A stretch of DNA of 42,727 bases from Methanomassiliicoccaceae archaeon (GTDB taxonomy: Archaea; Thermoplasmatota; Thermoplasmata; Methanomassiliicoccales; Methanomethylophilaceae), in the NCBI GenBank assembly GCA_016284295.1, contig JAEEOP010000013.1:1-42727 (forward strand). The letters run 5' to 3'. Shown one piece after another: positions 2,182 through 28,592 of the stretch. Every line of letters starts with the position of its first letter. The stretch's first letter is position 1. A model generated the notes under the pieces. The model searched no databases. It was not told the DNA's origin and saw only the letters and a list, made by a program, of their open reading frames with translations. Position numbers and translations under genes: made by a program.

Positions 2182-3469
2182 CGATGGTCCTCCTGTCAGA
2201 CATCTCGCCTGCTAGCGGCGTCCTCATCAGCTCCTTGACCTCCTCGACGGAGGATGTGTTGGCCAGCGCCCACATCAGCTTGACGTAGGCGGTCTCCGGG
2301 AGCATGTCCCAAACCGTGATCACACCTGCGGACAGCATATCCCTTCCGGTGTTGTAGACGTTCAGGTTGGTCCTACCGTTAAGGCACTGCGATGTTATCA
2401 CGACTACGATCCCCTTGTCGCATGCCTTCTTCAGCAGCGGGACCATGTTGGAATTGACATGCCCCAGACCGGAACCCGCTATGACGACCCCTTTGGACCT
2501 CATGATGATGTCCTCGAACAGCGCGGGGTCCATGCCCGGGTAGTACTGGAGCAGGATGCACGACTTCTCCATCGCCGTCCTGGCGACGGCCTTCTCCGAG
2601 GTCACCTCGTGACCTTCGATGTGCATCTCGATCTTCCCGTCCTTGTCTAGATGTGCGACGGGCAGCACGTTGATGGAATGGAACGCATCACGCCTGGACG
2701 TGTGCATCTTCCTCACTCTGGAACCTATGTGCACCGCGAAGGAATCGTCGCCGGAGGTGTCGTGCATTATGACGTACACACCGGACTTCTTCCCCTTGAC
2801 GCAGAACCTGGCACAGGCCATGAGGTTGCTGGACGCATCCGATGACGGACGGTCCGATGACCTCTGGGCGCCGACCAAAACGACAGGCTTGGGGACGTCC
2901 CCGAGCATGAACGACAATGCAGCCGCGGTGTATCCCATGGTATCCGTACCGTGGGGGATGATTATGCCGTCCGCACCGTCGTTAATCTGCTTCGCTACCT
3001 CCTCGGCCAGTCTCTGCCAGTGGTCCACATCCATGTTTTCCGAGAATATCGAGAAGAGGACGGTGGCGTCCACGTTGGCTATCTCCCTGATCTCGGGGAC
3101 GGCGTTGACCATGTCCGATGTGGACAGAGCGGGGTGCACCGCACCGGTCCTGTAGTCCACGTAGGATGCGATGGTACCGCCGGTACCGATGAGCACGAGC
3201 TTGGGGAGCCCCTTCTGGAATTCCACGGGGGTCTCCTTCCTGACCCTCTCCACCGGCTTCTCGAGCACCTCTATGGTGGTCTCGGGGGTCACCCTGATAC
3301 CTACATTATAACCGCTCTTGACCTTGATGATCAGGACATCGGGTGCGCTGAACTCGTGGTGGGGCATCAAAGTGCCCACGGAGTTCCTGCCATCCTTCGT
3401 CACCGATAACCTGGAACCCTCGACCGCGCCGAGGTCCTCCAGCCTCTTTGAAAGTGATTCGGAATACAT
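2174..3469 (-). CDS. gatD: Glutamyl-tRNA(Gln) amidotransferase subunit D
   Basis: GatD, 431 aa, is the glutaminase (L-asparaginase fold) subunit that releases ammonia for GatE. Residues 1-75 form the small N-terminal domain typical of GatD. The asparaginase domain follows, with the first catalytic-Thr motif GTGGTIAS at 95-102 (Thr99) and the second motif HGTDT at 173-177. The start is the first ATG and is followed by the expected N-terminus. A TATA-like element about 36 bp upstream implies a very short leader. The gene heads a two-gene operon with gatE and diverges from hypB. Confidence 0.97.
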   Translation of the reverse strand: MYSESLSKRLEDLGAVEGSRLSVTKDGRNSVGTLMPHHEFSAPDVLIIKVKSGYNVGIRVTPETTIEVLEKPVERVRKETPVEFQKGLPKLVLIGTGGTIASYVDYRTGAVHPALSTSDMVNAVPEIREIANVDATVLFSIFSENMDVDHWQRLAEEVAKQINDGADGIIIPHGTDTMGYTAAALSFMLGDVPKPVVLVGAQRSSDRPSSDASSNLMACARFCVKGKKSGVYVIMHDTSGDDSFAVHIGSRVRKMHTSRRDAFHSINVLPVAHLDKDGKIEMHIEGHEVTSEKAVARTAMEKSCILLQYYPGMDPALFEDIIMRSKGVVIAGSGLGHVNSNMVPLLKKACDKGIVVVITSQCLNGRTNLNVYNTGRDMLSAGVITVWDMLPETAYVKLMWALANTSSVEEVKELMRTPLAGEMSDRRTIDV

Positions 3470-3498
3470 GCTGTTCGGCGCACGATAGGCCTGGTCGT

Positions 3499-3511
3499 GT
3501 TTATATTATTC
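3499..3511 (-). promoter_or_regulatory. Predicted TATA box of gatDE
   Basis: On the minus strand this reads AATAATATAAACA, centred about 36 bp before the gatD ATG. Archaeal transcription starts about 25 bp downstream of the TATA centre, which would leave a leader of about 10 nt. It is separate from the hypB TATA box on the other strand. Confidence 0.6.
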
Positions 3512-3540
3512 GTGCCCGCACGCGTTACCGATACGATAGG

Positions 3541-3548
3541 TTATAATC
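3541..3548 (+). promoter_or_regulatory. Predicted TATA box of hypB (leaderless)
   Basis: The sequence TTATAATC is centred about 26 bp before the hypB ATG, so transcription should begin at or within a few bases of the start codon. No Shine-Dalgarno-like sequence precedes the ATG, consistent with a leaderless mRNA. Position is seen; start-site placement is inferred from the usual archaeal spacing. Confidence 0.55.
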
Positions 3549-3569
3549 GACCATACCCATGGTCGGCGC

Positions 3570-4220
3570 ATGCACATAGTCCAGCCTGGAATGGAGATTG
3601 ACGTGCTCAAGGAGAACAGCAAGGTGGCCAACGAGAACTACCGTCTCCTCAAGGAGCACAAGATAAGATCCGTCGACTTCATGGGTTCCATCGGAGCCGG
3701 GAAGACGGCCCTCATCATAAAACTGGCAGAGAAGCTCAGGGCCAAGGGCGTCCGCGTCTGTGCCATAGCGGGGGACGTCACGGGTGTCGACGACTACTCC
3801 AGATTCGAAAAGTCCGGGCTGAAGGCGTTCAACTGCAACACGGGGCACGAGTGCCACCTGGATGCGAACCTCGTCAGGAAGTCGCTCAGGGAGATCGATT
3901 TGGACCAGTACGATGTGGTCCTGATCGAGAACGTCGGGAACCTGGTGTGCCCTGCGGACTTCCCGCTGGGAACGGACTACAGGGTTGTGGTCATCTCCAC
4001 GACCGAAGGCGACGACATGGTCAGGAAGCATCACGACATCTTCCTCCACTCGGACATCGCGATCCTGAACAAGATGGACATCTGCGACGCCGTCGGAGTG
4101 GACCCTGAGGTCATAGCCGACGACTACAGGAAGCTCACCGGTGGTCTGAAGGAGATCTACAAGTGCAGCGTCAAGAAGGACGAAGGCCTGGATGAGATCA
4201 TCAAGGCGCTCAATCTGTGA
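3570..4220 (+). CDS. hypB: Hydrogenase nickel-incorporation GTPase HypB
   Basis: HypB, 216 aa, is the SIMIBI-class GTPase that with HypA loads nickel into [NiFe]-hydrogenase large subunits. The P-loop is GSIGAGKT (39-46). A Cys-His metal-binding pair sits in TGHECHLDA (Cys95, His96), and a further Cys lies in NVGNLVCPADF near 127. The bacterial N-terminal CxxCGC or His-rich nickel store is absent, as in most archaeal HypB. It is followed 9 bp later by purD. No hypA or hydrogenase structural genes are in the window. Confidence 0.95.
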   Translation: MHIVQPGMEIDVLKENSKVANENYRLLKEHKIRSVDFMGSIGAGKTALIIKLAEKLRAKGVRVCAIAGDVTGVDDYSRFEKSGLKAFNCNTGHECHLDANLVRKSLREIDLDQYDVVLIENVGNLVCPADFPLGTDYRVVVISTTEGDDMVRKHHDIFLHSDIAILNKMDICDAVGVDPEVIADDYRKLTGGLKEIYKCSVKKDEGLDEIIKALNL

Positions 4221-4229
4221 GGGATAGAC

Positions 4230-5546
4230 ATGAAGGTATTGGCAGTAGGAGGAGGCGGAAGAGAGCATGCGGCGGTCGAGGCGCTGTACAGATCGGGAGC
4301 GGAGATCTACTCGGTCATGAAGAACGCCAACCCCGGAATCATAGCGAGGTCCAAGGATCACCTCCTGTGCAGCGAGAAGGACCTGGACAAGGTGTGCGCA
4401 TTCGCCAAGGAGAAGGGTGTCGAGATCGCCTACATCGGTCCGGAGGCCCCTCTCGAGGTAGGTATCGTGGATGCCCTCGAGGCCATCGGAGTGAAGTGCG
4501 CAGCGCCCACCAAGGCGGCCGCCAGGATCGAGACGTCCAAGACATTCATGAGGGAACTGGTCGACAAGTACAAGATCAAGGGCAATCTGGGATTCGCAAG
4601 CTTCGACAACGCGAAGGATGCAGAGGAGTACCTGAAGAAGATCGACCACGAGATCGTCGTCAAGCCCGTCGGGCTCACAGGCGGAAAGGGAGTCAAGGTC
4701 CAGGGAGAGCACCTCAAGAGCTTCGAGGAGACCATGGACTACATCAACGAGATCTTCGATGCGAACATCGGCGGAGCCGGTGTCATCCTCGAGGAGAAGG
4801 CCGTAGGAGAGGAGTTCACCCAGATGGCCTTCGTGGACGGGAAGAAGGTTGTCCCCATGCCCCTGGTCCAGGACCACAAGAGGGCCTACGAAGGCGATGT
4901 GGGACCGAACACCGGAGGAATGGGCTCCTACACCGATTCAAACCACCTGCTGCCGTTCATCACAGCGGACGAGAGGAAGGAGGCCATCTCCATCATCCAG
5001 TCTGTCATCGATGCGATGGCGAAGGAGGGATGCCCCTACCACGGACCCATCTACGGGCAGTTCATGCTCACCGTGAACGGACCCAAGATCATCGAGTTCA
5101 ACGCCAGGTTCGGAGACCCCGAGGCGATGAACGTACTCACCGCATTGGAATCCAGCTTCCAGGACATCTGCTACCAGATGGCGACAGGGACCCTGAAGGA
5201 TGATGTCAGGTTCTTCGACAAGGCCACCGTCTGCAAGTACATCGTGCCCAAAGGATACGGCGTGAAGTCCGAATCCGGACACGAGATCACGGTGGACGAG
5301 GAGAGCATCAGGAAGTGCAACGCCGTCGTCTACTACGCCAACGTCGACCAGAAGGACGGAAAGCTTGTCACAGGGACATCCAGGTCCGTCGGTGTCGTCG
5401 GCATCGGCAAGGACATCGAGGAGGCCGAGAGGAACTGCGAGAAGGCGGTCGGATTCGTGAAATGCGACGCGATCTTCCTCCGCCACGACATCGGCACCCG
5501 CGCCCTCGTCCAGAAGAGGGTGGACCACATGAGGGAACTCCGCTAG
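4230..5546 (+). CDS. purD: Phosphoribosylamine-glycine ligase
   Basis: GAR synthetase, 438 aa, joins phosphoribosylamine and glycine with ATP in de novo purine synthesis. The N-terminus KVLAVGGGGREHA is the family signature. The ATP-grasp core includes KPVGLTGGKGVKV (about 150-163), and the metal-binding end has EFNARFGDPEAMNVL. A GAGGG-type ribosome binding site lies between the hypB stop and the ATG. The stop codon is TAG (5544-5546), the only TAG terminator recognised among intact genes here. If TAG were read through, an in-frame TGA stops translation two codons later. Confidence 0.96.
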   Translation: MKVLAVGGGGREHAAVEALYRSGAEIYSVMKNANPGIIARSKDHLLCSEKDLDKVCAFAKEKGVEIAYIGPEAPLEVGIVDALEAIGVKCAAPTKAAARIETSKTFMRELVDKYKIKGNLGFASFDNAKDAEEYLKKIDHEIVVKPVGLTGGKGVKVQGEHLKSFEETMDYINEIFDANIGGAGVILEEKAVGEEFTQMAFVDGKKVVPMPLVQDHKRAYEGDVGPNTGGMGSYTDSNHLLPFITADERKEAISIIQSVIDAMAKEGCPYHGPIYGQFMLTVNGPKIIEFNARFGDPEAMNVLTALESSFQDICYQMATGTLKDDVRFFDKATVCKYIVPKGYGVKSESGHEITVDEESIRKCNAVVYYANVDQKDGKLVTGTSRSVGVVGIGKDIEEAERNCEKAVGFVKCDAIFLRHDIGTRALVQKRVDHMRELR

Positions 5547-5548
5547 GC

Positions 5549-6328
5549 ATGAACAGAGTCCTGGTCAAGATAGCGTATCTGGGGGACGGCTTCAACGGCT
5601 CCCAGATACAGCCCTCCGGGAGAACCGTGGAATCGGTCGTCCTGGAGAAACTCTTGATAGTGATGAGATGCTCCGCCGAGGAGCTGGACCTGAAGTTCTC
5701 CAGCCGCACCGACAAGGGTGTCAACGCCCTCGGGAACGCCATACTGTTCAATTCTATCTTCTCCGACAACGCGGTGATGCTGAAGGCCCTCAACGCCATA
5801 GGCGGGGACATATTCTTCAGGTCCGCATGCACAGTGCCGGATGACTTCAACGTCCGCTACGCGTCCTGCCGCATCTACCGCTACGTCCTTCCTTCGAAAG
5901 GCATGGACATGGACCTTGCAAGGCAGTGCGCCGACATCTTCCTGGGGGAGCATGACTTCGCCAGGTTCTGCCGTCCCGACAACAAGCCCACCGTGGCCAA
6001 CGTGGAGCGCATCGACATGGACGAGAGGGACGGGCTCCTGATCCTGGAGTTCGAGGCCCGCTACTTCCTTTGGAACATGATTCGCAGAATCGTCGCCGCC
6101 ATCCACTCGGTGTCCATCGGGACTCACACCCTCGATGATGTGCACAGGGCACTGGATGACCTGCAGGAGGTCAACTTCGGAGTCGCCAGGCCCGATGCGC
6201 TGACGCTGATGGATGTGGTCTACGACTGGCTGGAATTCACGCCCGCCGACGGTTCTCAGTTCTCGTCCAGGAAGGATGAGGAATCCTTCTCCCAGGGGCT
6301 CCGCAGAACGTTCTTCGATTCCCTCTGA
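5549..6328 (+). CDS. truA: tRNA pseudouridine synthase A
   Basis: TruA, 259 aa, makes pseudouridine in the anticodon arm (positions 38-40) of tRNAs. The catalytic Asp lies in SSRTDKGVNA (Asp55), followed by the RIYRYVLPS strand and the C-terminal FLWNMIRRIV motif. The open frame extends upstream through purD, but the ATG at 5549 gives the canonical N-terminus (MNRVLVKIAYLGDGFNGSQ), so the upstream part is a shadow. The start lies 2 bp after the purD TAG, implying coupled translation. Confidence 0.95.
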   Translation: MNRVLVKIAYLGDGFNGSQIQPSGRTVESVVLEKLLIVMRCSAEELDLKFSSRTDKGVNALGNAILFNSIFSDNAVMLKALNAIGGDIFFRSACTVPDDFNVRYASCRIYRYVLPSKGMDMDLARQCADIFLGEHDFARFCRPDNKPTVANVERIDMDERDGLLILEFEARYFLWNMIRRIVAAIHSVSIGTHTLDDVHRALDDLQEVNFGVARPDALTLMDVVYDWLEFTPADGSQFSSRKDEESFSQGLRRTFFDSL

Positions 6329-6370
6329 ACCATCTTGCATCAGAGAGTTCCATCTAATTTTAGGAATAAC

Positions 6371-6380
6371 TAAATTTATC
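6371..6380 (+). promoter_or_regulatory. Predicted TATA region of the methyltransferase gene
   Basis: The AT-rich element TAAATTTATC lies in the 99-bp gap between truA and the methyltransferase. Its centre is about 52 bp before the ATG, predicting a leader of about 25 nt. A locally AT-rich patch continues to the start codon. Confidence 0.45.
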
Positions 6381-6427
6381 TATGCCCAATTGTTTAACAC
6401 AGTTAATAACAGAATAGAGATGGAAAA

Positions 6428-7051
6428 ATGAGCATATCTCAGAAATTCTACTGCAACGCGAAGAGGCCGACAGGCTTCATGGGAAAGATGATGGTCAAAG
6501 GCATGAACGGAGGGGCCCACGAAAGGCTCGCCAAGTGGGGCCATTCCCATTTCAAGGTAGAAGGCGACGTCCTCGACATCGGATGCGGCGGGGGAGGGAA
6601 CATCGAAAGGATGCTCCTGATGTCCGGCGTGAAGACCGTTACCGGAGCAGATTATTCCGAGGTCAGCGTCGCCGAATCCACCAAACTGAACAAGGTCTCC
6701 ATAGACCATGGGCACTGCCGCATAGTCAGGGCCGATGTCAGGGAGCTGCCTTTCGAAGATTCCTCATTCGACACCGTGACCGCCTTCGAGACGGTCTACT
6801 TCTGGCCCGAGATAGGGGAGTCCTTCAAGGAGGTGCTCAGGGTCATGAGGCCCGGAGGGGTGTTCGCCATCACCAACGAGTCCACAGGCAAGGACGAGGC
6901 GTCCGTGAAGTATTCCAAGATCATCGACGGGATGAACCTCTACACGCCCGAGGACCTGAAAGGACTGCTGGAAGGCGCCGGATTCTCCGAGGTCAGGACG
7001 TACGCGGATGACAAGAAGCCCTGGATCTGCGTCACCGGCAGGAAACCATAA
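6428..7051 (+). CDS. Class I SAM-dependent methyltransferase
   Basis: A 207-aa Rossmann-fold methyltransferase. Motif I is VLDIGCGGGGN (48-58), with an acidic residue at the end of strand 2 (VTGADYSEVS), a DVRELPFEDSSFDTV post-motif, and a RVMRPGGVFAI strand-5 region typical of the Methyltransf_11 group. The ~45 residues before motif I form a short cap and show no transmembrane segment. The substrate cannot be assigned; a small-molecule target is likely. The gene has its own AT-rich promoter and converges on the surface-protein pair at 7.2-13.5 kb. Confidence 0.85.
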   Translation: MSISQKFYCNAKRPTGFMGKMMVKGMNGGAHERLAKWGHSHFKVEGDVLDIGCGGGGNIERMLLMSGVKTVTGADYSEVSVAESTKLNKVSIDHGHCRIVRADVRELPFEDSSFDTVTAFETVYFWPEIGESFKEVLRVMRPGGVFAITNESTGKDEASVKYSKIIDGMNLYTPEDLKGLLEGAGFSEVRTYADDKKPWICVTGRKP

Positions 7052-7130
7052 ACCGAACAGGACTCACGTCCCTTCCATACATAGCTTTCTGAATCGGAAG
7101 GGACACTGACGGATATCGTAGAAGGATGAC

Positions 7131-7174
7131 GGTGTGCAGAGCACACCGGAAAGGGGGAGGGGATTCCCTCCCTT
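7131..7174. terminator. Two adjacent hairpins between convergent genes
   Basis: The 137-bp gap between the methyltransferase and the surface protein gene holds two perfect short hairpins. GGTGTGC-AGA-GCACACC lies at 7131-7147. GGGAGGG-GATT-CCCTCCC lies at 7155-7172, followed by a T-rich stretch (to about 7189). They probably act as a bidirectional transcription stop or mRNA 3'-end stabiliser. Confidence 0.5.
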
Positions 7175-7188
7175 GATCTTTAGGTTTT

Positions 7189-7980
7189 TCAGCGCCTGGA
7201 CTTGGGCTTACCGAAGTTCTTGATCGGCTTGCGGTAGATCCAGATGGCCATGATGATCAGGACGATCAGGATGATGAACGCGATCGCGATGACCATCGAG
7301 TAATCGTTGTCGTTGGCGTAGAAGGTGTGCACCTCGCCGAGACCCTTGATTACATCTGCTGCTCCGACGGCCTCCACATAGTAGGTGTGGGTGGAACCGT
7401 ATGCGGGGTCAGCGATCCAGTCGTAGGAGATGGAACCGGTTCCGTCCCTGGACAGGGTGACAGTGGTGTAGCTGTCCTCCATCTTCTCGCCGTCGACGTA
7501 GAAGTAGACTCCGAACTCCTCGAGGTTGAGGGTGATGTCGTCCGCCTTCAGGTTGACGGTCAGCTTGATGGGGTTGACTGCCTTGAAGTCGTATCTGGCG
7601 CTTTCCTTCTTGACGTCGTCGTCGCCCTTCTTGAGCTCGAAGTCGACCACAAGGGTGTAGTTGCCTGCGGTTTTGGGAGCGGTCACGGTCAGCGTCCTCT
7701 CGACGCCGCTGGTCATGGATCCGGTGGACGGGGACACAGCGTTGGACTGCGTCTCGCCCGCCTTGTTGACGACCTTCGCGGAGTAGGAGATGGTCCTGCC
7801 TTCGTCCTGCTCGGAAAGCGTGTATTTCACTTTGAAGTCCTCGGATGTGGAGACCTTGAAGTAGTCGACCCCCTCGTGGGAGATCTCTGCGCCGGCCGCA
7901 TCCAGGGAGGCACCCATCGGCGCAAAGCAGACGACTGCCGCGGCCAACAGGGCCAGGATTCCTAGGGTTACTTTATTCAT
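7189..7980 (-). CDS. Secreted, C-terminally anchored surface protein coupled to the STT3-like gene
   Basis: A 263-aa protein with no family I recognise. From the ATG at 7980 it has a signal peptide (about residues 1-30, hydrophobic core LGILALLAAAVVCF) and a ~200-residue beta-rich ectodomain with Ig-like patterns (TLTVTAPKTAGNYTLVV). A transmembrane helix near 228-250 follows, then a basic cytoplasmic tail ending KSRR. The start codon overlaps the STT3-like gene's stop (ATGA), so the two are translationally coupled. Both end with an external domain, one membrane anchor and a basic RR tail, suggesting they sit side by side in the membrane. A longer start upstream is open but would lose the N-terminal signal peptide. 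Confidence 0.7.
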   Translation of the reverse strand: MNKVTLGILALLAAAVVCFAPMGASLDAAGAEISHEGVDYFKVSTSEDFKVKYTLSEQDEGRTISYSAKVVNKAGETQSNAVSPSTGSMTSGVERTLTVTAPKTAGNYTLVVDFELKKGDDDVKKESARYDFKAVNPIKLTVNLKADDITLNLEEFGVYFYVDGEKMEDSYTTVTLSRDGTGSISYDWIADPAYGSTHTYYVEAVGAADVIKGLGEVHTFYANDNDYSMVIAIAFIILIVLIIMAIWIYRKPIKNFGKPKSRR

Positions 7981-10900
7981 CTGCGTGAGAACACCCCCCT
8001 CTTGGATCCCATCCAAACAATGAGGATGAGGAGCAGGATACTGACACCGAAGATGAACCAGACTCCTAGCGGGATGCCGGACTTCTGGTCAACGGCGGTG
8101 TCTCCGGACACGGTCATCGAGGTTACCTCGACGTTCATATCCGAAGGAGTGACGGACTTTCCGCTAACGATGGTGTTTCCGTTTCCATCGGTCGCGGTGA
8201 CACTGATGCCTGCGGGCATGGACAGCGCACCGTCGGTCTTCATGACCTTGGCGTACACGACGTAGGAGGTCTTCGCAGGGATGATGAATGTGGATCCATT
8301 GTCCTTGATGAGGGCTCCGTTCTCGTTCATGAGCTTGACGGTGTATCCGCCTGTGATATTCACATTGATCGTGGCCTGGTTGGTCGCACCGTCGTTGATG
8401 AACGTCAGCGCGTACAGGTACTCGGATCCGGAGATCATGTCCTTGTTGTTGCACTCGGATGCGACCTTCATGGTGATGGGGGTCGTTCCGGGCACGTTTG
8501 TTCCGTCGATGATGTGGACGGTCTGAGATGTGGTTCCGTTGTAGTCGGAGACGATGAGGGTCATTCCGCTGGAAGCGATTCCGGTTCCCTCGGGCTGGTA
8601 GTTACCCTCGACGTCGACGGTCTCGGTGATGCCGGGGGCGACCTTGACCTGCACGGACTTCTTGAGGACCCATGCGGTTCCTGCGGTGACGGCGTACGTC
8701 TTCTCCGTGTCGGTGTTGTTGGTGATCGCCAGCTGGACCTTTCCGGTTCCGTTGTTGAAGTTGGCGGACAGGATGCGGGCCTCGAGGTCGTCATCGGTTC
8801 CGTCGACCGCACTGTCGTCGCTGACAACAGCGATGTTCACGATGCTTCCGGCCTTGAGACCGGTGGCGTCTGCGGATCCGGTGAATCCGTAGGTCTCTCC
8901 GTCGACAGTCTTGGTGAGGGTGACGGAGAACGTCGCTGCGGTCACATCCTCGGGGATATTGACCTTGAATGCTCCGCTGGAGACATCCGCGTTGACGATT
9001 GTGTCACCGTACTCCACACGGAGCTTGCCGTCTGCGACGACTCCGGTGTAACCGGTGATCTCCATGAGCTTGGCGGATGTGGTCATGTTGAGCGTGGGGA
9101 TCTCGGGGGATCCGAACTCCCTGTAGACCGTCGCGTACTTGACGCATCCGGTGCTGCCGTTGCTGCTCTCGACGGTGTACTCGCAATCGTACTCGAAGTA
9201 GTACGTCTCTCCGTCCTGGTAGTAGGACTTGTCACCCTTGACGGTGATCGTGTCGAGCTCGGCCTTGGTGATCTTGACACCGAAGACCTCGGTAGCATTG
9301 AGTCCGGAGAAGCTGGTCTGTCCGGGGTACAGGTAGACTGTTCCGCTGAAGTAGTATCCGGTGGATCCCTCGACCTTCGCGGTGTACTGTCCGGGAGCGA
9401 CGGAGACGGTCTGTCCCTTCGTTCCGGTGATCTTGTCTCCTCCTCCGTAGGGAGTGAGGGTGATGTCGTAGGGGAGCACGACGGATGCGGTTACCATGTT
9501 GGCTGCGGGGATCGTGACCGTCTTGGTGACGTTGGATGTTCCGTTGTCGATGGTCGCCTTCAGCGAGTCGTACTTGAATGCGGCGTTGTCGATCGCTCCG
9601 CCGTTGATCTTGACCTCGGCCGATGTGGCATCCCTGGGGATGACGAACTCAGTCTTTCCGGTGGCGTTGCTCATGCCGTAGACGTTGTAGACCCCGTTTC
9701 CGCTGTTGAACGAGAGTGTCTCGGGTGCGAAGGGGATGCTGACGTTGGACTTGCTGGTCTTGCTCGCATAGTTGTATGTGATCGTGACCTTCTTTCCGTC
9801 GACGAGGGACTTGCTGATGTCGCTCTTGTCGCCGGTGACGTTCACTTTATCGACGAGCACCTTGTTGCTGCTGTTGTAAGCATGCATGGTGTAGGTGCCT
9901 GCCATGAGGTAGACGGTGAACTTTCCGTCGGATGCGGCGGTGGTCCTGACATATCCTCCGTCGTCGTTGATGAAGTCGATGGTGGCTGCGGTGCCAACCG
10001 TTCCGGAGACCTTGTAGGCGTTTCCGGAGTTGATCTCGACGGTGCTGCCGGACTTGTAGGTCCCCATGTACACGGACCTTCCGTCGAATCCGTAGAAGGT
10101 GTAGAGGGATTCGGTTGCACCGATGGATATGGGGAGCCACTCCTGGGTTCCACCGTATGCGACGGTGCTGAAGGGTCCTCCGTAGACGGAGAACGTCACA
10201 GGCACATCGGGGATGCTGACCTGAGTAGCTTCGTATGCGGTGATGCTGACCGTCCTGTTGCTGGTGACGTTGAGGGACGTCGTGTTGAGCGCCCTGTATC
10301 CGCCGTAGACATCGACGGTGTATGTTCCGCTGGGGACGTAGACGACGGCCTTTCCGTCGGTGATCTCTGCCTCGTAGACGCTACCGTTGGACGAGTTGGT
10401 GGCCATGACGTAGCCGCTGGTCACGGACTGTCCGAAGTAGTCCACGACGGTCGCTGTGATCGTGTAGGACTTGGGCGAGACGGTGAGTCCGACGTTCTCT
10501 CCTGCGTACAGGCTGACGGTACCGGATGCGACTGCCGTTCCGGAATCGTCACGGAGCTCGTAGCTGTAGGATCCGGGTGTGATGAGGACGGACTTGCCCT
10601 GTGCATCCTTGGCGTCTGCGGACCTGACCTTGGCGAGGTCGGACTCGATGAAGATCTTGTTGCCGTTGTTCTCAAGGACGTACAAGTATCCATCCATGTC
10701 GATGCTGTTGCCGAGGACGATTACTCCCTCGAACTTGGCGGAGTCGATGACGACCTTGCTGCCGGTGATCTGTGTCTCCAGCTTGACGGAGCCGTTCTTG
10801 AAGACGACCATGTACTCAGAGTCGCTGGGGTAGATGGCGGAGTAGTTTCCGTTCGCATCGGTCTTCGTCTCGGAGTAGACGGTGTTGGTACCGTACTGAC

Positions 10901-13451
10901 TGTTGTAGGATAGGACCTGGACCGTGATTCCCTGGAGAGGCTCTCCGGCCTCGTTGACGACCTGGTTGGATGCGAGTCCGTTGTCGTATCCGACATACTT
11001 GAGCATGATCATGGAGGACAGGTAGTTGATGAGTCCTCCCTCGGTGAGCTGGAGCTCCCTTGCCTTCTCGTAGGACATGTACTCCCATCCGGAGTCCACG
11101 GTGGTGGCGTTGGATGCGGGGTTGTACCTGACATACCAGCTGGAGACCTCGTATCCTGCGAGTCCGTATCCAGGCATAGCCTTGACGGAACCGTCGCTGG
11201 TGGTGAGGGCGTAGAGGTACGAGAACGAGGAGGTGTATCCTGCCTCTGCGGGCGAGGGTCCGATGAGCGCCTTCCACAGGAAGGTGTCGTAGAGGGCGTC
11301 CGTCGCGTACGCGGGATAGTAGTTGGAATAATATGTGATGTATGAGTAGTAATCGGTGGCCGCTCCGTAGCTGTCGGTGTTGTGTCCGGCGAAGTATGCT
11401 ATGGTGGCCAGGGATGTTCCGTCGCCGTAGATCAGGGGGACCATGGATCCGTCCACAAGGTAGTATCCGATGTCCTGGTCGGCCTTGTCGCACACGGACT
11501 CGTATGTGTCCATGATGGCAGAGGTTCCCATTGCGGATGTGATGGCCTCGACGGATGCGAGGTACATCGCATTCTCGTCGGAGACGTTGGTTCCGATGCT
11601 TCCGTATGTGTCGGGGTCTGCGAGGACCACGGTCTTAGCGGTCGCAGGGTCCTTGATGAAGCTGTTGACGGTTCCGAAGACGTTCGCGTATCCGGTGAAG
11701 CTGGCGCTGAAGTCGGTGTTGGGGTTGGCCGCCATGACACGCACGATCTGCGCTGCGGTGGCACCTGCGCTTCCTTCCGCCAGATAGATCTGGGCGGCTG
11801 CGGACGCACCGTCTCCGTACATGTCGTTGACGGTGTTGAATCCGAGTGCCTGGATATCGGTCGCATTGTCGATCCAGGAGACGACTGCCTTGCTCTTGTC
11901 GCCGGTCTCGGTAAGGTCGTCGTAGATCTGGGTGACCGGGTATGCGTCGCCGGTCTCGATTGTGTATGTGGTGTTTCCGTATGCGAAGTATCCGTATGTC
12001 TCGTTGGAGGAGATACCGGCGTCGACCGCGTAGACGAATCCGGGGACGGCGACGAGGAACACCGCGACGAGGAGTGTGATGAAGGGCACGGGCTTGATGA
12101 TCTTCCTGAAGATTCCGGGGAATCCGGCTCCCTTCATGTTGGCGAAGTATGCCTTGAGGTCGACCTTCCTGAGGACTCCGACGATGACCGCCGCGGATGC
12201 GAAGGCGTAGATGGGTCCGATGACGACTGCCGCTCCGACAGAGGACCAGGAGAAGATCCAGAGGACCAAGAGCCACATGGTGATGAACAGCTGCGTGTGG
12301 GAGCGGTCCTTCCTGGCGTACTTGTAGAACTCGTAGAGTCCAAGCGCGAAAGGCATCCACATGAGGAGCCATCCGTAGTAGGAGGACATCTTGGAGATGG
12401 AGATTCCGACGTTCGCGAGCTCATCCATGATGGGGTTGAAGAACGTGGAGTTTCCGAAGATGAGTGCTGTGCAGAGCTGGGGTGCGACGAAGTATAGCAC
12501 GACTGCGATGACAGCGAACGCGATGATGAGTCCGGGCACGACGAAGATCCAGGGCTTGCTCTGGAGGGCCTTGAAGATGAATCCGAAGACTATCGCGATG
12601 ACAGTGATGAGAACAGGTCCGGAGAAAACCGCATCCCAGAGGTTTGCAGGAATGTAATAGATTGCCGCGATCGCGACTCCGATCAGCATGACCAGGGAGT
12701 ACGAGTAGAGCGTGACGCTGAAGTCCTTGGAGTTGAAACGGTCGATCAGCATCTGGATGACCATCGTGATGATGATCATGACCAGGAGTGCGCGGAATCC
12801 GTTCCAGGTCAGCGCGATGAGCGCGAGCAGAAGTCCTGCGACAATGACCTCCTTCTTTGCGAGAACGCCCTCGCCGACCTTCTTGGCCAGCTTGATGAGT
12901 GCGAAGAAGAAGAAAGCCACCAGGAATGCAGCAAAGCCGTATTCTGTTCCGTTGGAGAGGACGGTTGCGCTGATGGGCAACGCCATGAAGCCGTAGATGA
13001 ATGCGGCGAGGAGTCCGACCTTGTAGTCCCTGAGCTCCTTTCCGATGAGGAAGACAGGAATAACGGTCAAGGCTCCGAAGATGGGTGCCAACACAGCCAG
13101 GGCGGTGGATGCGGAAGTCACCGATCCGAGACCAGCCGCGATGAAATCATAGAGCGGCGGGTTAACATTGAGTCCCCCGACAGGGTAATTGAGAGCCATA
13201 TCGCTTCCGAGGACATAGCTTCCGTTGAGTATGCTTTCGACTACGTGCAGATGATATTGTGCTGCCGAACCCCCAGACAACGCGAAACCGCTGTCTGCGG
13301 AAACGCCGTAAGCGAACACGGTCCTCAACAAAATCGCAAGAACCGCGATCAAGCAAACGACAAGAGCACAGTGGTTCTGCAACCACCCTTTACCGCTTTC
13401 GCGGCCTACCCCTTCAGAAGGGGCGGTTGACTCTTTTCCGAATTTGCGCAT
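7977..13451 (-). CDS. STT3/AglB-like oligosaccharyltransferase homologue with giant ectodomain
   Basis: Predicted 1824 aa. Residues ~25-475 hold about a dozen membrane helices arranged as in STT3/AglB, the enzyme that transfers lipid-linked glycans to Asn-X-Ser/Thr. An extracellular region with the AglB-type motif block follows (SWIDNA, 525-530). Then come ~900 residues of beta-sandwich repeats, including carboxypeptidase-regulatory-like units (such as EAGEPLQGITVQVLS). The C-terminal anchor and basic tail read GVWFIFGVSILLLILIVWMGSKRG. Key motifs deviate: DPYYH-type is AAQYH (63-67) and WWDYG is WIDNA (526-530), so catalytic competence is uncertain. A conserved acidic residue (IMDEL, 341-345) remains. 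The ATG at 13451 has GGAG 9 nt upstream. An in-frame ATG at 13496, about 26 bp from the TATA box, is an alternative leaderless start. The open frame further upstream runs into pyrF and is not real. Confidence 0.8.
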   Translation of the reverse strand: MRKFGKESTAPSEGVGRESGKGWLQNHCALVVCLIAVLAILLRTVFAYGVSADSGFALSGGSAAQYHLHVVESILNGSYVLGSDMALNYPVGGLNVNPPLYDFIAAGLGSVTSASTALAVLAPIFGALTVIPVFLIGKELRDYKVGLLAAFIYGFMALPISATVLSNGTEYGFAAFLVAFFFFALIKLAKKVGEGVLAKKEVIVAGLLLALIALTWNGFRALLVMIIITMVIQMLIDRFNSKDFSVTLYSYSLVMLIGVAIAAIYYIPANLWDAVFSGPVLITVIAIVFGFIFKALQSKPWIFVVPGLIIAFAVIAVVLYFVAPQLCTALIFGNSTFFNPIMDELANVGISISKMSSYYGWLLMWMPFALGLYEFYKYARKDRSHTQLFITMWLLVLWIFSWSSVGAAVVIGPIYAFASAAVIVGVLRKVDLKAYFANMKGAGFPGIFRKIIKPVPFITLLVAVFLVAVPGFVYAVDAGISSNETYGYFAYGNTTYTIETGDAYPVTQIYDDLTETGDKSKAVVSWIDNATDIQALGFNTVNDMYGDGASAAAQIYLAEGSAGATAAQIVRVMAANPNTDFSASFTGYANVFGTVNSFIKDPATAKTVVLADPDTYGSIGTNVSDENAMYLASVEAITSAMGTSAIMDTYESVCDKADQDIGYYLVDGSMVPLIYGDGTSLATIAYFAGHNTDSYGAATDYYSYITYYSNYYPAYATDALYDTFLWKALIGPSPAEAGYTSSFSYLYALTTSDGSVKAMPGYGLAGYEVSSWYVRYNPASNATTVDSGWEYMSYEKARELQLTEGGLINYLSSMIMLKYVGYDNGLASNQVVNEAGEPLQGITVQVLSYNSQYGTNTVYSETKTDANGNYSAIYPSDSEYMVVFKNGSVKLETQITGSKVVIDSAKFEGVIVLGNSIDMDGYLYVLENNGNKIFIESDLAKVRSADAKDAQGKSVLITPGSYSYELRDDSGTAVASGTVSLYAGENVGLTVSPKSYTITATVVDYFGQSVTSGYVMATNSSNGSVYEAEITDGKAVVYVPSGTYTVDVYGGYRALNTTSLNVTSNRTVSITAYEATQVSIPDVPVTFSVYGGPFSTVAYGGTQEWLPISIGATESLYTFYGFDGRSVYMGTYKSGSTVEINSGNAYKVSGTVGTAATIDFINDDGGYVRTTAASDGKFTVYLMAGTYTMHAYNSSNKVLVDKVNVTGDKSDISKSLVDGKKVTITYNYASKTSKSNVSIPFAPETLSFNSGNGVYNVYGMSNATGKTEFVIPRDATSAEVKINGGAIDNAAFKYDSLKATIDNGTSNVTKTVTIPAANMVTASVVLPYDITLTPYGGGDKITGTKGQTVSVAPGQYTAKVEGSTGYYFSGTVYLYPGQTSFSGLNATEVFGVKITKAELDTITVKGDKSYYQDGETYYFEYDCEYTVESSNGSTGCVKYATVYREFGSPEIPTLNMTTSAKLMEITGYTGVVADGKLRVEYGDTIVNADVSSGAFKVNIPEDVTAATFSVTLTKTVDGETYGFTGSADATGLKAGSIVNIAVVSDDSAVDGTDDDLEARILSANFNNGTGKVQLAITNNTDTEKTYAVTAGTAWVLKKSVQVKVAPGITETVDVEGNYQPEGTGIASSGMTLIVSDYNGTTSQTVHIIDGTNVPGTTPITMKVASECNNKDMISGSEYLYALTFINDGATNQATINVNITGGYTVKLMNENGALIKDNGSTFIIPAKTSYVVYAKVMKTDGALSMPAGISVTATDGNGNTIVSGKSVTPSDMNVEVTSMTVSGDTAVDQKSGIPLGVWFIFGVSILLLILIVWMGSKRGVFSRR

Positions 13452-13548: not shown

Positions 13549-14193
13549 TCAGAGGACGGTCCTGATGTCGTCGGCGAACGATTGGGCCGCTGACCGGGGG
13601 TCAGCGGAGCCATATATGGCGCGTCCGACGATGGCGTAGGTCGCTCCTGCCCTTATGGCATCGAACGCCTTTCCGCCCTGCACTCCTACTCCGGGGGACA
13701 GGATCTTGAGGTCGCCGATGATCCTGCGGATGTCCGCGATCCTCTCGGGACGGGTGGCGGGGGCGATGAATCCCTTGACGCCGCACTCCACGCCCAACCT
13801 GGCCATCTCCTCGGCGTGCTTGGCAGTGAACATCTTACCTCCAGGGTGGCTCATCTCTGTGACGGCATAGATCTCCGCATCGCCTGCGGCCTCCACGGCC
13901 GCTTTCAGGGAATCGTCGCCGGTGAACGCGTGGACGATGACGGCCGATGCCCCTCTGGACACGGCGTTCTCGACGATGAGCCTGGCGGTGTTGGGGATGT
14001 CCGCGACCTTGAAGTCGCAGATGACGTCGGTCATCTCGGACAGCTTCGTGATCATCTGGGGGCCTTCGGACAGGACCAGGGGCCAGTTTATCTTTATGGC
14101 GTCCACTATGTCGCCCACGGATTCGGCCACTGCAAGTGCCTTCTTTCCGTCAGTCTCGTCAAGGGCCAGTACCAGTCTGCTGTCCATCTTCAT
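13549..14193 (-). CDS. pyrF: Orotidine 5'-phosphate decarboxylase
   Basis: OMP decarboxylase, 214 aa, makes UMP in pyrimidine synthesis. The N-terminal strand RLVLALDETD and KIN (Lys34) precede the catalytic DxKxxD array in DFKVADI (Asp60, Lys62, Asp65). The phosphate-gripping LSPGVGVQGG and IVGRAIYGS loops follow. It is a typical short archaeal TIM barrel. The start (MKMDS) is 28 bp from a TATA box shared with the divergent radical SAM gene, predicting a leaderless message. Confidence 0.97.
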   Translation of the reverse strand: MKMDSRLVLALDETDGKKALAVAESVGDIVDAIKINWPLVLSEGPQMITKLSEMTDVICDFKVADIPNTARLIVENAVSRGASAVIVHAFTGDDSLKAAVEAAGDAEIYAVTEMSHPGGKMFTAKHAEEMARLGVECGVKGFIAPATRPERIADIRRIIGDLKILSPGVGVQGGKAFDAIRAGATYAIVGRAIYGSADPRSAAQSFADDIRTVL

Positions 14194-15805: not shown

Positions 15806-16084
15806 TCACAGCGTTAAGATGTTGGAGCTACCTTTGTCGATAATAGCAAGGGCAGAGACTGAGAATGGTTTTCCGCAAAGAGCACCGAGCTCCATGTTGT
15901 TACCTTCGTAGATGCGGACCTTTACGTTCGCATCCTTCAGCTCCTGGCAAGGGCAGTTCCTCGCGAGGATGATCATCTGCGCCTCTCCGGCCTTTACTGC
16001 TTTCATTGTCTGATCGAGTCCGAACTGCACCTTTCCGGTGGTGATAGCGGACTTCAAAGCTCTGCTTATGTCTACTTCGCTCAT
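15806..16084 (-). CDS. rpl30e: 50S ribosomal protein L30e
   Basis: A 92-aa member of the L7Ae/L30e fold that binds kink-turn-like RNA in the large subunit. Typical segments are [18 protein letters not shown] at the start and [10 protein letters not shown] in the middle, and Cys residues occupy the usual places. Its ATG overlaps the rpoA'' stop in an ATGA junction. The placement between RNAP A'' and NusA is the conserved archaeal order. Confidence 0.94.
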
Positions 16085-17523
16085 TCTTTATCCCCCTTCT
16101 TTTTGGGTGTGTAAATAAGGTTTACTGCACCGGTACCAAGCGTGACCGGCTGTCCAACTATGATGTTCTCGGTAACTCCCTCAAGGTGGTCGACCTCTCC
16201 TACCATAGCTGCGTGCAGAAGGTGCGCGGCAGTGATCTCGAAAGCCGCCCTGGCAAGTACCGAGGACTTCTTTCCAGACACTCCGTGCCTTCCGATGGCC
16301 TTCACATAACCGTCGTTGGTCATGAGATCGGCCACGAGCATGATGTGACGTATATCGACATCAAGACCCGCTTCTCCCAGAGTTCCCATTGCCTCGTGGA
16401 TGATGGAGTTCCTGGCGGCCTCGATTCCGAGGACGTCGGCCACTTCCAATATGCTGTTTGTCATCACATTGGGTGCATCCACTCCGGTCACTGTAAGGAC
16501 CTCTTTGAGGTTGCTTCCTTCGGTGACGATCTTCCAGTATCCCTCCGTCTTGGACAGGACGGCCCTGGTAATCCCGTCGATACCTTTGATCTTGGCGGTC
16601 TTGACGGAATCGTACATCACCTGGAGCTTCTTGTACGAAGGCTCGTCCGACTGGATGACGATGTCGTATCCCGACAGCTTCACCAGACCGCGGACGGCCT
16701 TGACCTTGTTCAATCTCTCCACCAGTTCCTCGACCTCGATGTGCCTCTCCTCCATCTTGCGGACGTCGGGTCTGACGATCAGCATCATGTTGGTGATATC
16801 GGTGTCGATGGTGGCGACATCCAGGATGGATGTCATCTCTATGTTCGATGCGACGAGACGTGCGACGTTCTCGTCCTGGGCTGCGATGCCCTCGAGCGGG
16901 ATGTCCATCGAAGGAGTGCTGGGGATGCGCCTGGCATCCACGATCTCGATCAGACGGGGAAGTCCCTGGGTAACGTTGATGTTCGCGACTCCTGCGTAGT
17001 GGAAGGTACGCATGTTCATCTGGGTACCAGGCTCTCCGATGGAGTGCGCAGCCATGACTCCGGCAGACTCGTTCTGGTCCATCTTGTGCCTCTCGTACAT
17101 GGCGCTGGCCCTTCTCAGGAGCTCCCTGCACTTGTCTTCGGAGACGTCATGCCCCTCGATGCGTGCGGCGATGTCCACGATGACCTTCATGGGCAGCTCG
17201 ATCTTCTCCTCCTCGAGGTATCCCTTGAGCCTGAGCTCGGTGTCGTTGTAGACGTAGAAGTCCGTGACCTCCTCCATCTTGACGGGCTCGGGCTCCTCTA
17301 CGACCTTCTTCTTCGATCTGCTGGATGTGGAGGAGCTCCTGACTGCTCCCAGCTTCTGGATGACGTCCTTGGCCTCATCCTCGCTGATTCCGAGCTTGAC
17401 GATCTCCTCCTCTCCGGCGGTCCTGATGGCGTCCAGCGATGTGTACTGGGTGAGCAGCAGCGCAACGGTCTCCTCGTTGATGCCCCTCTTGATCAGGGCG
17501 TTCATTGTATCTTTCTTAGCCAT
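16081..17523 (-). CDS. rpoA2: DNA-directed RNA polymerase subunit A'' with N-terminal HhH extension
   Basis: The C-terminal third of the largest RNAP subunit, 480 aa. The standard A'' region starts near residue 85-90 and includes [20 protein letters not shown] (bridge-helix/trigger-loop neighbourhood). A'' proteins are usually ~390 aa; the extra ~85 residues here look like a helix-hairpin-helix domain (1-60, [18 protein letters not shown]...[18 protein letters not shown]). A Ser/Lys/Glu-rich linker (61-85) joins it to the core. The ATG at 17523 is preferred over GTG 17529 because GGAGGTGA (17530-17537) sits 6 nt upstream. It starts 2 bp after rpoA'. Confidence 0.96.
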
Positions 17524-17525
17524 TA

Positions 17526-20336
17526 TCACTCACCTCCGCCGTCGTAATCGGTCTCGAAGTCGTCCATGTCCTCTCCTTCTCCCTCTTCCTCGATGTATTC
17601 CATCTCGTCCTTCTCGAGGGATCCGTAGTCTCCTCCGACGTCCTTCTCGTTGTCGTGGACGAACTCCTCCGACTCCTCTCCGAAGACCTCGAAGAACAGG
17701 TCGTCCAGATCGATGGCCTTACCCCTGACCGTCTTAGCGGGGTCGACACCGTCCTCTCCGTACCTGAACTGGATGACGGTTCCCACGGTGTTCCTGACCG
17801 TTCCGTCGGATGTCAGCTTGAGGTCCTCCAGAGCGGAGACGAGCCTCCTCTGCATGTATCCGGACCTGGAGGTACGGACCGCGGTATCGACCAGTCCCTC
17901 TCTTCCTCCCATCGCGTGGAAGAAGAACTCGGTGGGTGTCAATCCTGACTTGTACGAGTTGGAGCAGAATCCTTTGGCGTACGCGCCCAGGTCTCCCTTC
18001 TCGAAGTGGGAGAGCGTCCTGTCCCAGTATCCTCTGGACAGCCTCTCTCCACGCACGGCCTGCTGACCCACACAACCCGCCATCTGCGACAGGTTGAGCA
18101 TGGATCCACGGGCTCCGGCCTTGGCCATGATGACCGCAGGGTTGTCCATTCCCAGGTACTTCCCTGCGATCTTTCCTGCCTCGTCACGGGCCTGTCCGAG
18201 GACCTGCATGACGCTGACCTCGAGGGTCTCCCTGAGGGAACGTCCGGGCATCTGCTGCAGTGTTCCGGCACGGTACGAGTCGACCAGCGCGGTCACCTTG
18301 TCGATGCATTCCTGGGTGTTGTTGTTGATCTGCAGGGATGCCTCCTTGGGGATGTCCTCGTCGCTGATACCCGTGCTGAATCCGTGGTTCATGAGGGCAC
18401 CGAGGGCGAGCCTGGTGACCTGGTTGATGAACTGGGCGGCCCTTGCGGAGCCATAGTCGCGGGCGATACGGTCGAGGATCTTTCCCTTGCTGTTTCCGAT
18501 GGCTTTGACATCGATGGTACCGCAGACGAGCTTTCCGTCGCGGATCTTGACGTATGCGTCGTACTCGCACTGGTCCTTCTTGCAGACGCCGCAGTTCTGG
18601 CAGATGTTCGCCTTGAAGCTGGTGTTGAAGTCCTTGGGGAGGACGGTGGAGAACAGCTGCTTGCCGGTCCAGTACCTCTCTTTGGTCTCCTCGTCGATGA
18701 AGGGCTCGGGCATCTCGATGTCGCTGAGCTTGAACATGATGTTCGCTGCTTCCTCCGCGTCGAAGCGGGGGTTGTTGTGCGTCAGGAAGTAAGCTCCCGT
18801 GATGTGGTCGTGGATGGCCCCGATGATGGGTCCTCCGTACCTGGGCGAGAGGATGTTCTCCTGCACCTGCATGATGATGCGTGCCTCTGCACGGGCCTCG
18901 TCGGACTGGAGGACGTGAAGGTTCATCTCGTCCCCGTCGAAGTCGGCGTTGTAGGGCGGACATACGCACAGGTTGAACCTGAAGGTCTTCCCTTCCATGA
19001 CCTTGACGCGGTGCGCCATCATGGACATCCTGTGCAGCGAGGGCTGCCTGTTGAACAGGACGACATCTCCGTCGACGAGCTGTCTCTCGACGGTGTATCC
19101 GATGTCGAGGTTCTCCGCGACCTCCGCGGCGTTCCTCTCGGTGACCCTGATCTTCCTTCCGTCGGAACGGATGACGTAGTTCGCTCCGGGGACGTAGGGG
19201 AAGTCCAGCACGTCGGCCATGGGGCCGCGCCTGACGATCTCCCTGACCTTCTCGATGTTGTACTGGTTCACGCGGAGCGGGACCGTGAGCTCCCTGGCGG
19301 CGAATGTGGGGACACCCACATCGTTGATGGAGAGCAGCGGGTCGGGCGAGATGACCGTACGGGCCGAGAAGTTGACACGCTTTCCGGAAAGGTTGGATCT
19401 GAAACGTCCCTCCTTTCCCTTGAGCCTCTGCTCCAGGGTCTTCAGGGGACGTCCGGACCTGTGCCTCGCGGGCGGGATTCCGGATGTCTGGTTGTCAAAG
19501 TATGTGGTGACATGGTACTGGAGCAGCTCCCACAGATCCTCGACGATCAGCTGGGGCGCTCCCTGGTCACGGTTCTCTCTGAGCCTCTGGTTGATCCTGA
19601 GAACGTCGACCAGCTTGTGGGTCAGGTCATCCTCGGACTTGTCTCCTGCCTCCAGTGTGATGGAGGGCCTGACGGACACGGGAGGCACGGCGAGGACGGT
19701 GAGGACCATCCACTCGGGCCTGCATGTCTCGGGATCGATTCCGAGCGCCCTGAGATCCTCGTCGGGGATCCTCTCGAGCCTCTCGCGGACCTCCTTGGGG
19801 GTCAGCTTGTGGTTGTCCTCGACCTCCCTGAACGTGGTGGGCTTGTCGAGCTTGATCTTGATCTGGGCCTCGTTACAGTAAGGGCAGACGGCCTTTCCGG
19901 ACGCGTCCTTGGCGGTGTCCTTCGTGAAGAGCTTCTTCTCGATGGTTCCTCCTCCGAGCTCCTCCATCTTCTCCATGCTCTCCATGCGGTCCTTGATCTG
20001 GTCCTCGGAGAGCATCAGCCTTCCGCACTTGCAGCACGTGGACTCGAGGAGCATCTTGATGTCCTTGATGAATCCGACATGGATGACGGGGAGGGCGAGC
20101 TCGATGTGTCCGAAGTGTCCGGGACACTCGTCGACCTTGCATCCGCAGGTCTTACAGCGGATTCCGGGCTCGATGACTCCCATGTGGGGGTCCATGAGTC
20201 CTCCGGGATAGGGATAGCCCTCGTCGTTGTAGGTGTCGGGGGTGATGACCTTGATCGCAGACATCTTCCTGATCTCCTCGGGGGAGAGGCAGGAGAACTT
20301 GATCGATCCGATTCTCTTGGTGATTCCGTATGTCAT
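17526..20336 (-). CDS. rpoA1: DNA-directed RNA polymerase subunit A'
   Basis: The N-terminal two thirds of the largest RNAP subunit, 936 aa, carrying the catalytic magnesium triad in NADFDGDEM (463-471; Asp465, 467, 469). An N-terminal zinc site uses [17 protein letters not shown] (Cys61, 64, 71, His74). A second Cys cluster, [12 protein letters not shown], lies further on. The last ~50 residues (about 887-936) form a strongly acidic tail ([18 protein letters not shown]) longer than usual for A'. The start overlaps the rpoB stop by ATGA. Confidence 0.98.
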
Positions 20337-28173: not shown

Positions 28174-28592
28174 TCCGCATCCTCCCTTATCACTTTCGAG
28201 ACCTTTGAGATTATCACCTTGAGGACATCCCTCTCCTCGGGGGTGAGGTCCCTGAACATGGATGACCATGCATCCTCGATGATGCGCTTGGCCTTCCTGG
28301 CCGCTTCCTTCCCTTCTGGGGTGAGGGCGAGGCTGTATGCGTGGCCGTGCCCCCTGTTCTCGACCAGACCATCGTCTATCAGCTTCAGAACGGTGCGGGT
28401 GGCATGGGCCTTGTCCACCGACAGCATATCAGAGAGGTCCCTCATGGACGCCCCCTCGTTGTGGTATATGGCGCCCAGGAACTGCGCCCCGGCCACCGTC
28501 AGACCGATCTCCTCCAGCGGCCCTATCGTCCTCTTGTCCATGTAGGTCTTCATAAGCCTCGGACCGCAGCAATTCTCCAGAGTATCTTCCAT
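28170..28592 (-). CDS. MarR-family transcriptional regulator of the ABC exporter
   Basis: A 140-aa MarR-type winged-helix protein. The DNA-binding region is MRDLSDMLSVDKAHATRTVLKLIDDGLVENR, followed by a wing with HAYSLALTPEGKE. N- and C-terminal helices form the dimer. The ATG at 28592 is chosen; an in-frame TTG 21 bp upstream lies inside a palindromic operator. It is a paralogue of the MarR gene just upstream and is coupled to the exporter by ATGA overlap. Likely an autorepressor of the exporter operon. Confidence 0.88.
   Translation of the reverse strand: MEDTLENCCGPRLMKTYMDKRTIGPLEEIGLTVAGAQFLGAIYHNEGASMRDLSDMLSVDKAHATRTVLKLIDDGLVENRGHGHAYSLALTPEGKEAARKAKRIIEDAWSSMFRDLTPEERDVLKVIISKVSKVIREDAE

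Follow-up and report, generated by a model that had tools for sequence, protein, structure and literature searches.

Oligosaccharyltransferases of the STT3/AglB/PglB type are the closest described relatives of the protein reported here. The roles of PglB D56, E319, R147, D154, D156 and R375 and of their AglB equivalents were taken from the relevant passages of PMC7226087, where the catalytic aspartate of external loop 1 (EL1) is PglB D56 or AglB D47 and the glutamate of EL5 is PglB E319 or AglB E360. A passage in PMC8674786 describes N-glycosylation as seemingly universal in archaea, and PMC4153887, in which the genomes of three Methanomassiliicoccales, including 'Ca. M. alvus', were analysed in 2014, inferred that these could produce N-glycans, potentially cell-wall-associated. 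We analysed a 42,727-nucleotide stretch (hereafter, the window) from a Methanomassiliicoccaceae archaeon (assembly GCA_016284295.1, contig JAEEOP010000013.1, positions 1 to 42,727), which encodes an STT3/AglB-like protein with altered catalytic motifs. The best joint explanation, to which we assign a probability of about 70%, is a conserved pseudo-oligosaccharyltransferase, the active site of which was lost once and which has been kept under selection as an anchored surface stalk. The gene and its parts are as follows.

7977 to 13451, minus strand: coding sequence of the putative pseudo-STT3/AglB protein, 1,824 amino acids plus stop (open reading frame translated without a stop)
12012 to 13451, minus strand: STT3/GT-C transmembrane domain, residues 1-480 (TIGR04154 match at 30-475; AglB matched by Foldseek with the AlphaFold model)
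13251 to 13268, minus strand: EL1 motif, residues 62-67, SAAQYH versus canonical S-D-S-Y-Y-H, catalytic Asp lost (alignment)
12939 to 12953, minus strand: EL2 motif, residues 167-171, NGTEY versus canonical N-A-D-H-D, both metal ligands lost (alignment)
12369 to 12440, minus strand: EL5 region, residues 338-361, canonical TISEAQ (TIXE-type Glu) replaced (alignment)
12228 to 12242, minus strand: residues 404-408, site of canonical A-x-R-F (equivalent to PglB R375), replaced and without Arg (alignment)
10962 to 12011, minus strand: soluble core domain, residues 481-830, WWDYG-bearing in oligosaccharyltransferases (model and fold match)
11862 to 11876, minus strand: WWDYG reduced to WIDNA, residues 526-530 (translation and alignment)
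8088 to 10961, minus strand: ectodomain of predicted beta-sandwich repeats, residues 831-1788 (model; CarboxypepD_reg-like, below the Pfam cut-off)
7998 to 8069, minus strand: C-terminal transmembrane anchor, residues 1795-1818 (helix predicted by the 816-1824 model)

The family membership of the protein was established by profile searches and structure prediction. TIGR04154 (archaeal STT3; archaeosortase A-associated) matched residues 30-475 with an E-value of 2.4e-20, scoring 72.5 bits where the cut-off is 450, and the PF02516 cut-off of 24.5 bits was not reached (11.4 bits, E 0.23). A single-sequence phmmer search of the PDB retrieved human STT3A at E 7e-5, and a profile of 51 relatives, 16 of them from other families and 15 of those with intact motifs, found Archaeoglobus fulgidus AglB at E 6e-38. 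The same AglB was the top Foldseek match (E 4e-16, TM-score 0.56-0.58, 15% identity) of the AlphaFold model of residues 1-835, which had a mean predicted local distance difference test score (pLDDT) of 86.1 and a predicted template modelling score (pTM) of 0.81. The protein thus has, by predicted fold and profile, the GT-C transmembrane fold and soluble core domain that mark STT3, AglB and PglB. By descent and predicted fold, it is the single, in-place orthologue of STT3/AglB. Since descent and fold match an oligosaccharyltransferase but the catalytic residues do not, it was classed as an STT3-family pseudoenzyme rather than as an oligosaccharyltransferase; orthology to an enzyme, loss of the essential residues and a reading frame kept by selection were all found.

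The motif letters given in the initial annotation, AAQYH at residues 63-67 and WIDNA at 526-530, were confirmed in the translation, as was the proposed STT3/AglB descent with altered catalytic motifs. The EL2 ligands, the EL5 glutamate and the donor-site arginine were found to be missing as well: the protein has A63 for the EL1 aspartate, T169 and Y171 for the EL2 ligands and G406 for the arginine, and lacks the EL5 glutamate. The extent of these losses was determined in 57 rows from family f1, inferred to be Methanomethylophilaceae, after loci repeating already sampled genomes and short N-terminal pieces had been removed. The rows represent about 54 genomes (L030/L082, L042/L043 and L070/L211 are judged to be same-genome pairs), and rows gapped at a column were left out of the count for that column. 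In this losing clade, the EL1 aspartate was kept in 6 of 54 rows, either EL2 metal ligand in none (0/55 and 0/55), the arginine at position 406 in none of 56, and the second tryptophan of WWDYG in none of 55. The glycine of WWDYG was present in 3/55 rows, and its first tryptophan (49/55) and tyrosine (38/55) partly persisted. The EL5 glutamate was found in a single row out of 23 lettered ones; the alignment is looser there, as the remaining 34 rows are gapped. The losses in EL2, of the arginine and of the second tryptophan are common to every readable row of the clade and, on this alignment, are more than chance. The canonical motifs were retained, wherever lettered, in 18 of the 19 rows from other families of the order and in six f1 rows from genera g24 and g25. 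R162 (PglB R147) was absent from the losing clade (0/55) and also from these six canonical f1 rows, so its loss is not diagnostic. The DK/MI motif of the Ser/Thr pocket could not be placed in the one alignment region inspected, canonical rows included.

The single exception among the other-family rows was L047 (genome G040, family f6, positions 1308-7655), a long-branched oligosaccharyltransferase with decayed motifs (ADYF, TISLTN, no Arg, WNGYG), in which the EL1 aspartate and the first EL2 aspartate are present. On the tree it falls within family f6, on a separate branch, so its decay was independent.

No credible second STT3 was detected in 102 f1 genomes, 91 of which gave a TIGR04154 match, nor in a set of 36 f1 genomes. 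The search for a second, canonical aglB in the genome of the window, suggested in the initial annotation, likewise found none by PF02516 or TIGR04154, and PF02516 was detected in four archaeal control genomes. The only extra signals were sub-cut-off PF02516 matches (E 0.08-0.6) among the 36 genomes, namely a second one in G021 and lone ones elsewhere in G024 and G025, and a 17-bit TIGR04154 fragment with stops in G091, the sole such case in the 102. Eleven of the 102 genomes had no TIGR04154 match; most of them are incomplete, and one, G031, has the gene according to a protein search. Genus g20, represented by a single genome, gave no match. None of the 91 main matches, canonical ones included, exceeded the TIGR04154 cut-off, and their scores were bimodal (52-145 or 204-254 bits). 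The high-scoring group consisted of g24 (five genomes) and g25 (one genome), with canonical motifs apart from R162. The proposition that the loss was uniform across f1 was therefore rejected.

Genus g23 was intermediate: the EL1 aspartate was kept in the two readable rows, WLD(Y/F)G was kept as well, and the EL2 ligands and the arginine were lost. The g23 loci L212, L213 and L214 appear to be an evolutionary intermediate, and open frames of 2,360-2,555 amino acids were present in four genomes of the genus, compared with mostly 1,800-2,000 in the rest of the losing clade. According to their record titles, the 25 f1 loci obtained by contig search came from the guts of roe deer, water deer, sheep, water buffalo and horse, from UBA genomes and from several unstated sources, and included Candidatus Methanoplasma species with termite-derived names. 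They carry labels such as Methanomethylophilaceae, Methanomassiliicoccaceae or plain Thermoplasmata, and the equation of f1 with Methanomethylophilaceae comes from these titles.

When the motif columns were left out, a tree of 48 rows placed the 30 losing rows in one clade with a Shimodaira-Hasegawa-like approximate likelihood ratio test (SH-aLRT) support of 100 and a stem of 1.35 changes per site, sister to the canonical g24/g25 proteins; the tree was built rapidly, with no bootstrapping, and the composition of six of its rows is odd. The initial annotation had considered a recast paralogue, which is at odds with the gene order. In all 16 other-family loci (L044-L059), pyrF adjoins the oligosaccharyltransferase gene. 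It does so too in every f1 locus reaching that far except G031 (L031, L081), where it was not found, and the shared locus argues for orthology with the canonical enzymes. The anchored protein encoded downstream has a homologue at the corresponding position in those f1 loci that are long enough; among the 16 other-family loci, 8 have one and two break off before that point.

Selection was assessed from the ratio of nonsynonymous to synonymous substitution rates (dN/dS) in ten losing-clade pairs, some of which share a member. The values were 0.10-0.32 for the transmembrane domain, 0.00-0.39 for the core and 0.11-0.67 for the ectodomain; the ratios of the nearly identical pairs L005/L006 and L016/L018 are weak. 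Three usable canonical pairs gave 0.08-0.16, 0.08-0.19 and 0.13-0.35, respectively (L044/L048 was not used, as its dS was saturated). The transmembrane domain of the losing clade is under purifying selection. Because this formerly catalytic domain is the best-kept part in most pairs, it presumably does something. The main match had no internal stop in any of the 91 f1 genomes with a match. At least 90% conservation was observed at 85 of 797 columns in the losing clade and at 220 in the canonical rows, with 35 common to both. Among the residues newly fixed in the clade are W402, W726, W772 and N809; W772 and N809 take the places of a near-invariant arginine and aspartate.

The ectodomain was modelled from residues 816-1824 (pLDDT 86.2, pTM 0.63) as beta-sandwich domains at about 831-1790, followed by one helix at about 1795-1818. 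The huge beta-repeat ectodomain and terminal anchor of the initial annotation are thus supported by prediction, at a length of about 960 rather than 900 residues. The notion that the ectodomain had been fused on did not hold, as the canonical proteins of the order, of about 2,150 amino acids, carry a homologous ectodomain and a similar [KR]GV[FL]xRR anchor tail. The losing-clade (32-row) and other-family (13-row) ectodomain alignments were homologous over most of their length (969 columns; hhalign probability 100, E 4e-56). The ectodomain is, accordingly, a property of the oligosaccharyltransferases of the order and not of the pseudoenzyme alone, and by these alignments it is ancestral to the order. 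A fold search retrieved generic beta-sandwich matches only (TM-score at most 0.19) among the matches listed.

As a composition-matched measure of N-glycosylation sequons, NxT counts were compared with counts of the reversed TxN over the C-terminal 1,350 residues of f1 proteins and the C-terminal 1,650 of those from other families. The NxT:TxN totals were 245:265 in 33 losing-clade proteins and 215:110 in 13 other-family proteins; NxT exceeded TxN in 15 of the 33 (one tie) versus all of the 13. We additionally sampled surface proteins from 20-kb regions by simple gene calling and hydropathy. Nine losing genomes gave 41 such proteins, about half of them from G013; seven canonical genomes also gave 41, with none coming from one of the seven. 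The totals were 102:103 for the losing and 93:57 for the canonical genomes (Fisher p 0.024), with ratios of 0.82-1.15 and 1.10-2.32, respectively, on bootstrapping by protein. Cytosolic controls were near 1 (372:411 and 271:292), and NxS counts showed no clear pattern. The sequon contrast lends modest, partly contrary support to a loss of N-glycosylation. The suggestion of the initial annotation that the protein is itself a glycan carrier is weakened, as NxT is no commoner than TxN in the ectodomains of the clade, and the sequons there do not show glycosylation; the window protein with its own excess, given below, speaks for it.

The start codon at 13451 was preferred, because residue 1 is methionine in all 24 relatives aligned from that position. 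An ATG further upstream would extend the reading frame to 13613, adding 54 residues with a weak resemblance to sequence upstream of the close relatives L007, L003 and L009 (E 2e-7 to 2e-3), which leaves the longer start as a less favoured alternative. The start codon of the downstream partner, which had no Pfam match, overlaps the stop of the gene (ATGA, from the coordinates). The neighbouring genes are as follows.

7189 to 7980, minus strand: downstream partner, 263 amino acids (by inspection: signal peptide, extracellular domain, C-terminal anchor)
13549 to 14193, minus strand: pyrF, conserved upstream neighbour (profile match and synteny)

Two further observations were made elsewhere in the window. 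An RNA polymerase A''-like subunit of 482 amino acids (16081-17529, minus strand), in which 200 profile positions are stretched over about 345 residues, suggests a large insertion, and a tandem pair of overlapping MsbA-like ABC half-transporters lies at 24611-28269, minus strand.

The sequence comparisons show that the metal ligands, most of the acceptor-activating acids, the donor-site arginine and much of the sequon-binding motif were lost once, in the ancestor of most of f1. The protein, with its predicted oligosaccharyltransferase fold and long ectodomain, has since been held by purifying selection. It would be unable to transfer a lipid-linked oligosaccharide to asparagine, and the clade would therefore be without STT3-type N-glycosylation. 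On the motif alignments, the loss of oligosaccharyltransferase activity is very likely, and the protein has probably been retained at the cell surface for another purpose, one that is not enzymatic. It may act as a structural, membrane-anchored stalk, probably together with the small anchored protein co-encoded downstream; the specific role of a non-catalytic surface scaffold, judged from its anatomy, is the likeliest one and a tentative assignment. We place at slightly below even odds the fuller account, in which the lineage gave up STT3-type N-glycosylation and retained its stripped sole oligosaccharyltransferase, either as a stalk anchored at the surface or to escort secreted proteins without catalysis, with a stepwise intermediate (g23) and one independent second case of decay still extant.

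The archaellum and S-layer are well-known carriers of archaeal N-glycans. In PMC10673518, Methanomethylophilus alvi is reported to lack an archaellum, a cell wall and a visible S-layer and to have one membrane and fibrils of up to 300 nm, which its authors ascribe to other adhesin-like proteins. The loss would fit M. alvi, since the well-known clients are absent there; L080, from a record named Methanomethylophilus sp. UBA78, belongs to the losing clade, and M. alvi itself lies outside the sample. That any fibril contains the ectodomain described here is speculation.

Several results weigh against this explanation. The window protein itself has 29 N-x-S/T sites and an NxT:TxN ratio of 17:8. 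Three g24 proteins with canonical motifs, one of them partial, showed no excess (14:12), so the change in sequons may predate the catalytic loss. The surface-protein contrast shrank with more data, from 99:101 (losing) and 72:33 (canonical) in a smaller interim set of regions, and two other-family genomes ran in the opposite direction (G057, 9:17; G046, 0:2). Many losing-clade orthologues passed the PF02516 cut-off (e.g., 50 bits in G023), 10 of 54 rows still have an EL1 acid (Asp or Glu), and the aspartate of WWDYG persists in 32 of 55. Flippase-like PF01943 genes, present in 51 of 60 genomes of the order and missing from that of the window, are patchy and uninformative, and other GT-C-like proteins exist. 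The loss of the lipid carrier, considered as a marker of pathway loss, was rejected, as cis-prenyltransferase is kept in 57 of the 60 genomes. PF00953 (GPT-type initiating sugar-phosphate transferase) was found in none of the 60 (G000-G059) and was also missed in Haloferax and Methanosarcina controls; its absence from the canonical families makes it uninformative, and lipid-linked glycans may be initiated differently in this order.

The acids newly or more strongly conserved in the clade likewise weigh against it, and bear on whether the protein is a divergent yet active oligosaccharyltransferase, with a metal site rebuilt by other residues such as E170 and a relaxed acceptor motif. Position 170 is acidic in 46 of 55 losing-clade rows versus 0 of 24 canonical ones, 626 in 49 of 54 versus 0 of 23, and 502 in 48 of 51 versus 7 of 23. 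The initial annotation had named an Asp placed at the metal site from a shifted segment as a finding that would refute its reading; by conservation, the only test applied, E170, E626 and D502 are new or more conserved. An active enzyme would also agree with the purifying selection, the retained GT-C fold and the lack of any other STT3 in the genome. However, E170 is not universal, both EL2 ligands, the donor-site arginine and the second tryptophan are gone from every readable row, the EL1 aspartate is lost from 48 of 54, and the NxT excess is absent from the clade, which makes continued activity unlikely. Conversion to another GT-C glycosyltransferase, e.g., a metal-free one using a dolichyl-phosphate sugar, seems rather improbable. 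The fold would permit it, Foldseek also matched the C-mannosyltransferase DPY19 and ArnT, which need no metal, and the retained cis-prenyltransferase is in line with it; however, GT-C enzymes share the EL1 acid as their catalytic acid, and this position is alanine in the window protein and non-acidic (not Asp or Glu) in 44 of 54 rows. A functionless gene decaying on its way to loss might account for the long stem branch and the raised ectodomain dN/dS of some pairs (up to 0.67), and is very improbable given the stop-free main match in 91 f1 genomes, transmembrane-domain ratios of at most 0.32 and a conserved neighbour.

If the sole oligosaccharyltransferase is inactive, this archaeal family, widespread and mostly from guts, would constitute a natural N-glycosylation knockout, in which the need for archaeal N-glycans becomes testable. 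It would also reveal the worth of the enzyme scaffold without catalysis and caution against crediting these species with an N-glycosylation pathway from homology alone. Searches of one open literature library listed no report of a lineage whose only STT3-family copy is a pseudoenzyme.

Pseudoenzymes in general have an enzyme fold without its catalytic residues and are under selection, and the same applies to the protein described here. A. fulgidus AglB (PDB 3WAJ, 7E9S) is its best solved-structure match by fold and profile, with an orthologous locus in the order; the catalytic Asp/Glu, metal ligands, donor-site Arg and WWDYG of AglB, STT3 and PglB are not conserved in it. The decayed G040 protein resembles it in its altered motifs and differs in its separate branch and in the two aspartates it has kept. 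Further close counterparts are the canonical oligosaccharyltransferases of the other Methanomassiliicoccales families and of g24/g25. These are orthologues of the pseudo-oligosaccharyltransferase, and those of the other families share its ectodomain, a similar anchor tail and the pyrF neighbour; unlike it, they keep DxYYH/DAVYY, DHD, T-I-x-E-A, RF and WWDYG.

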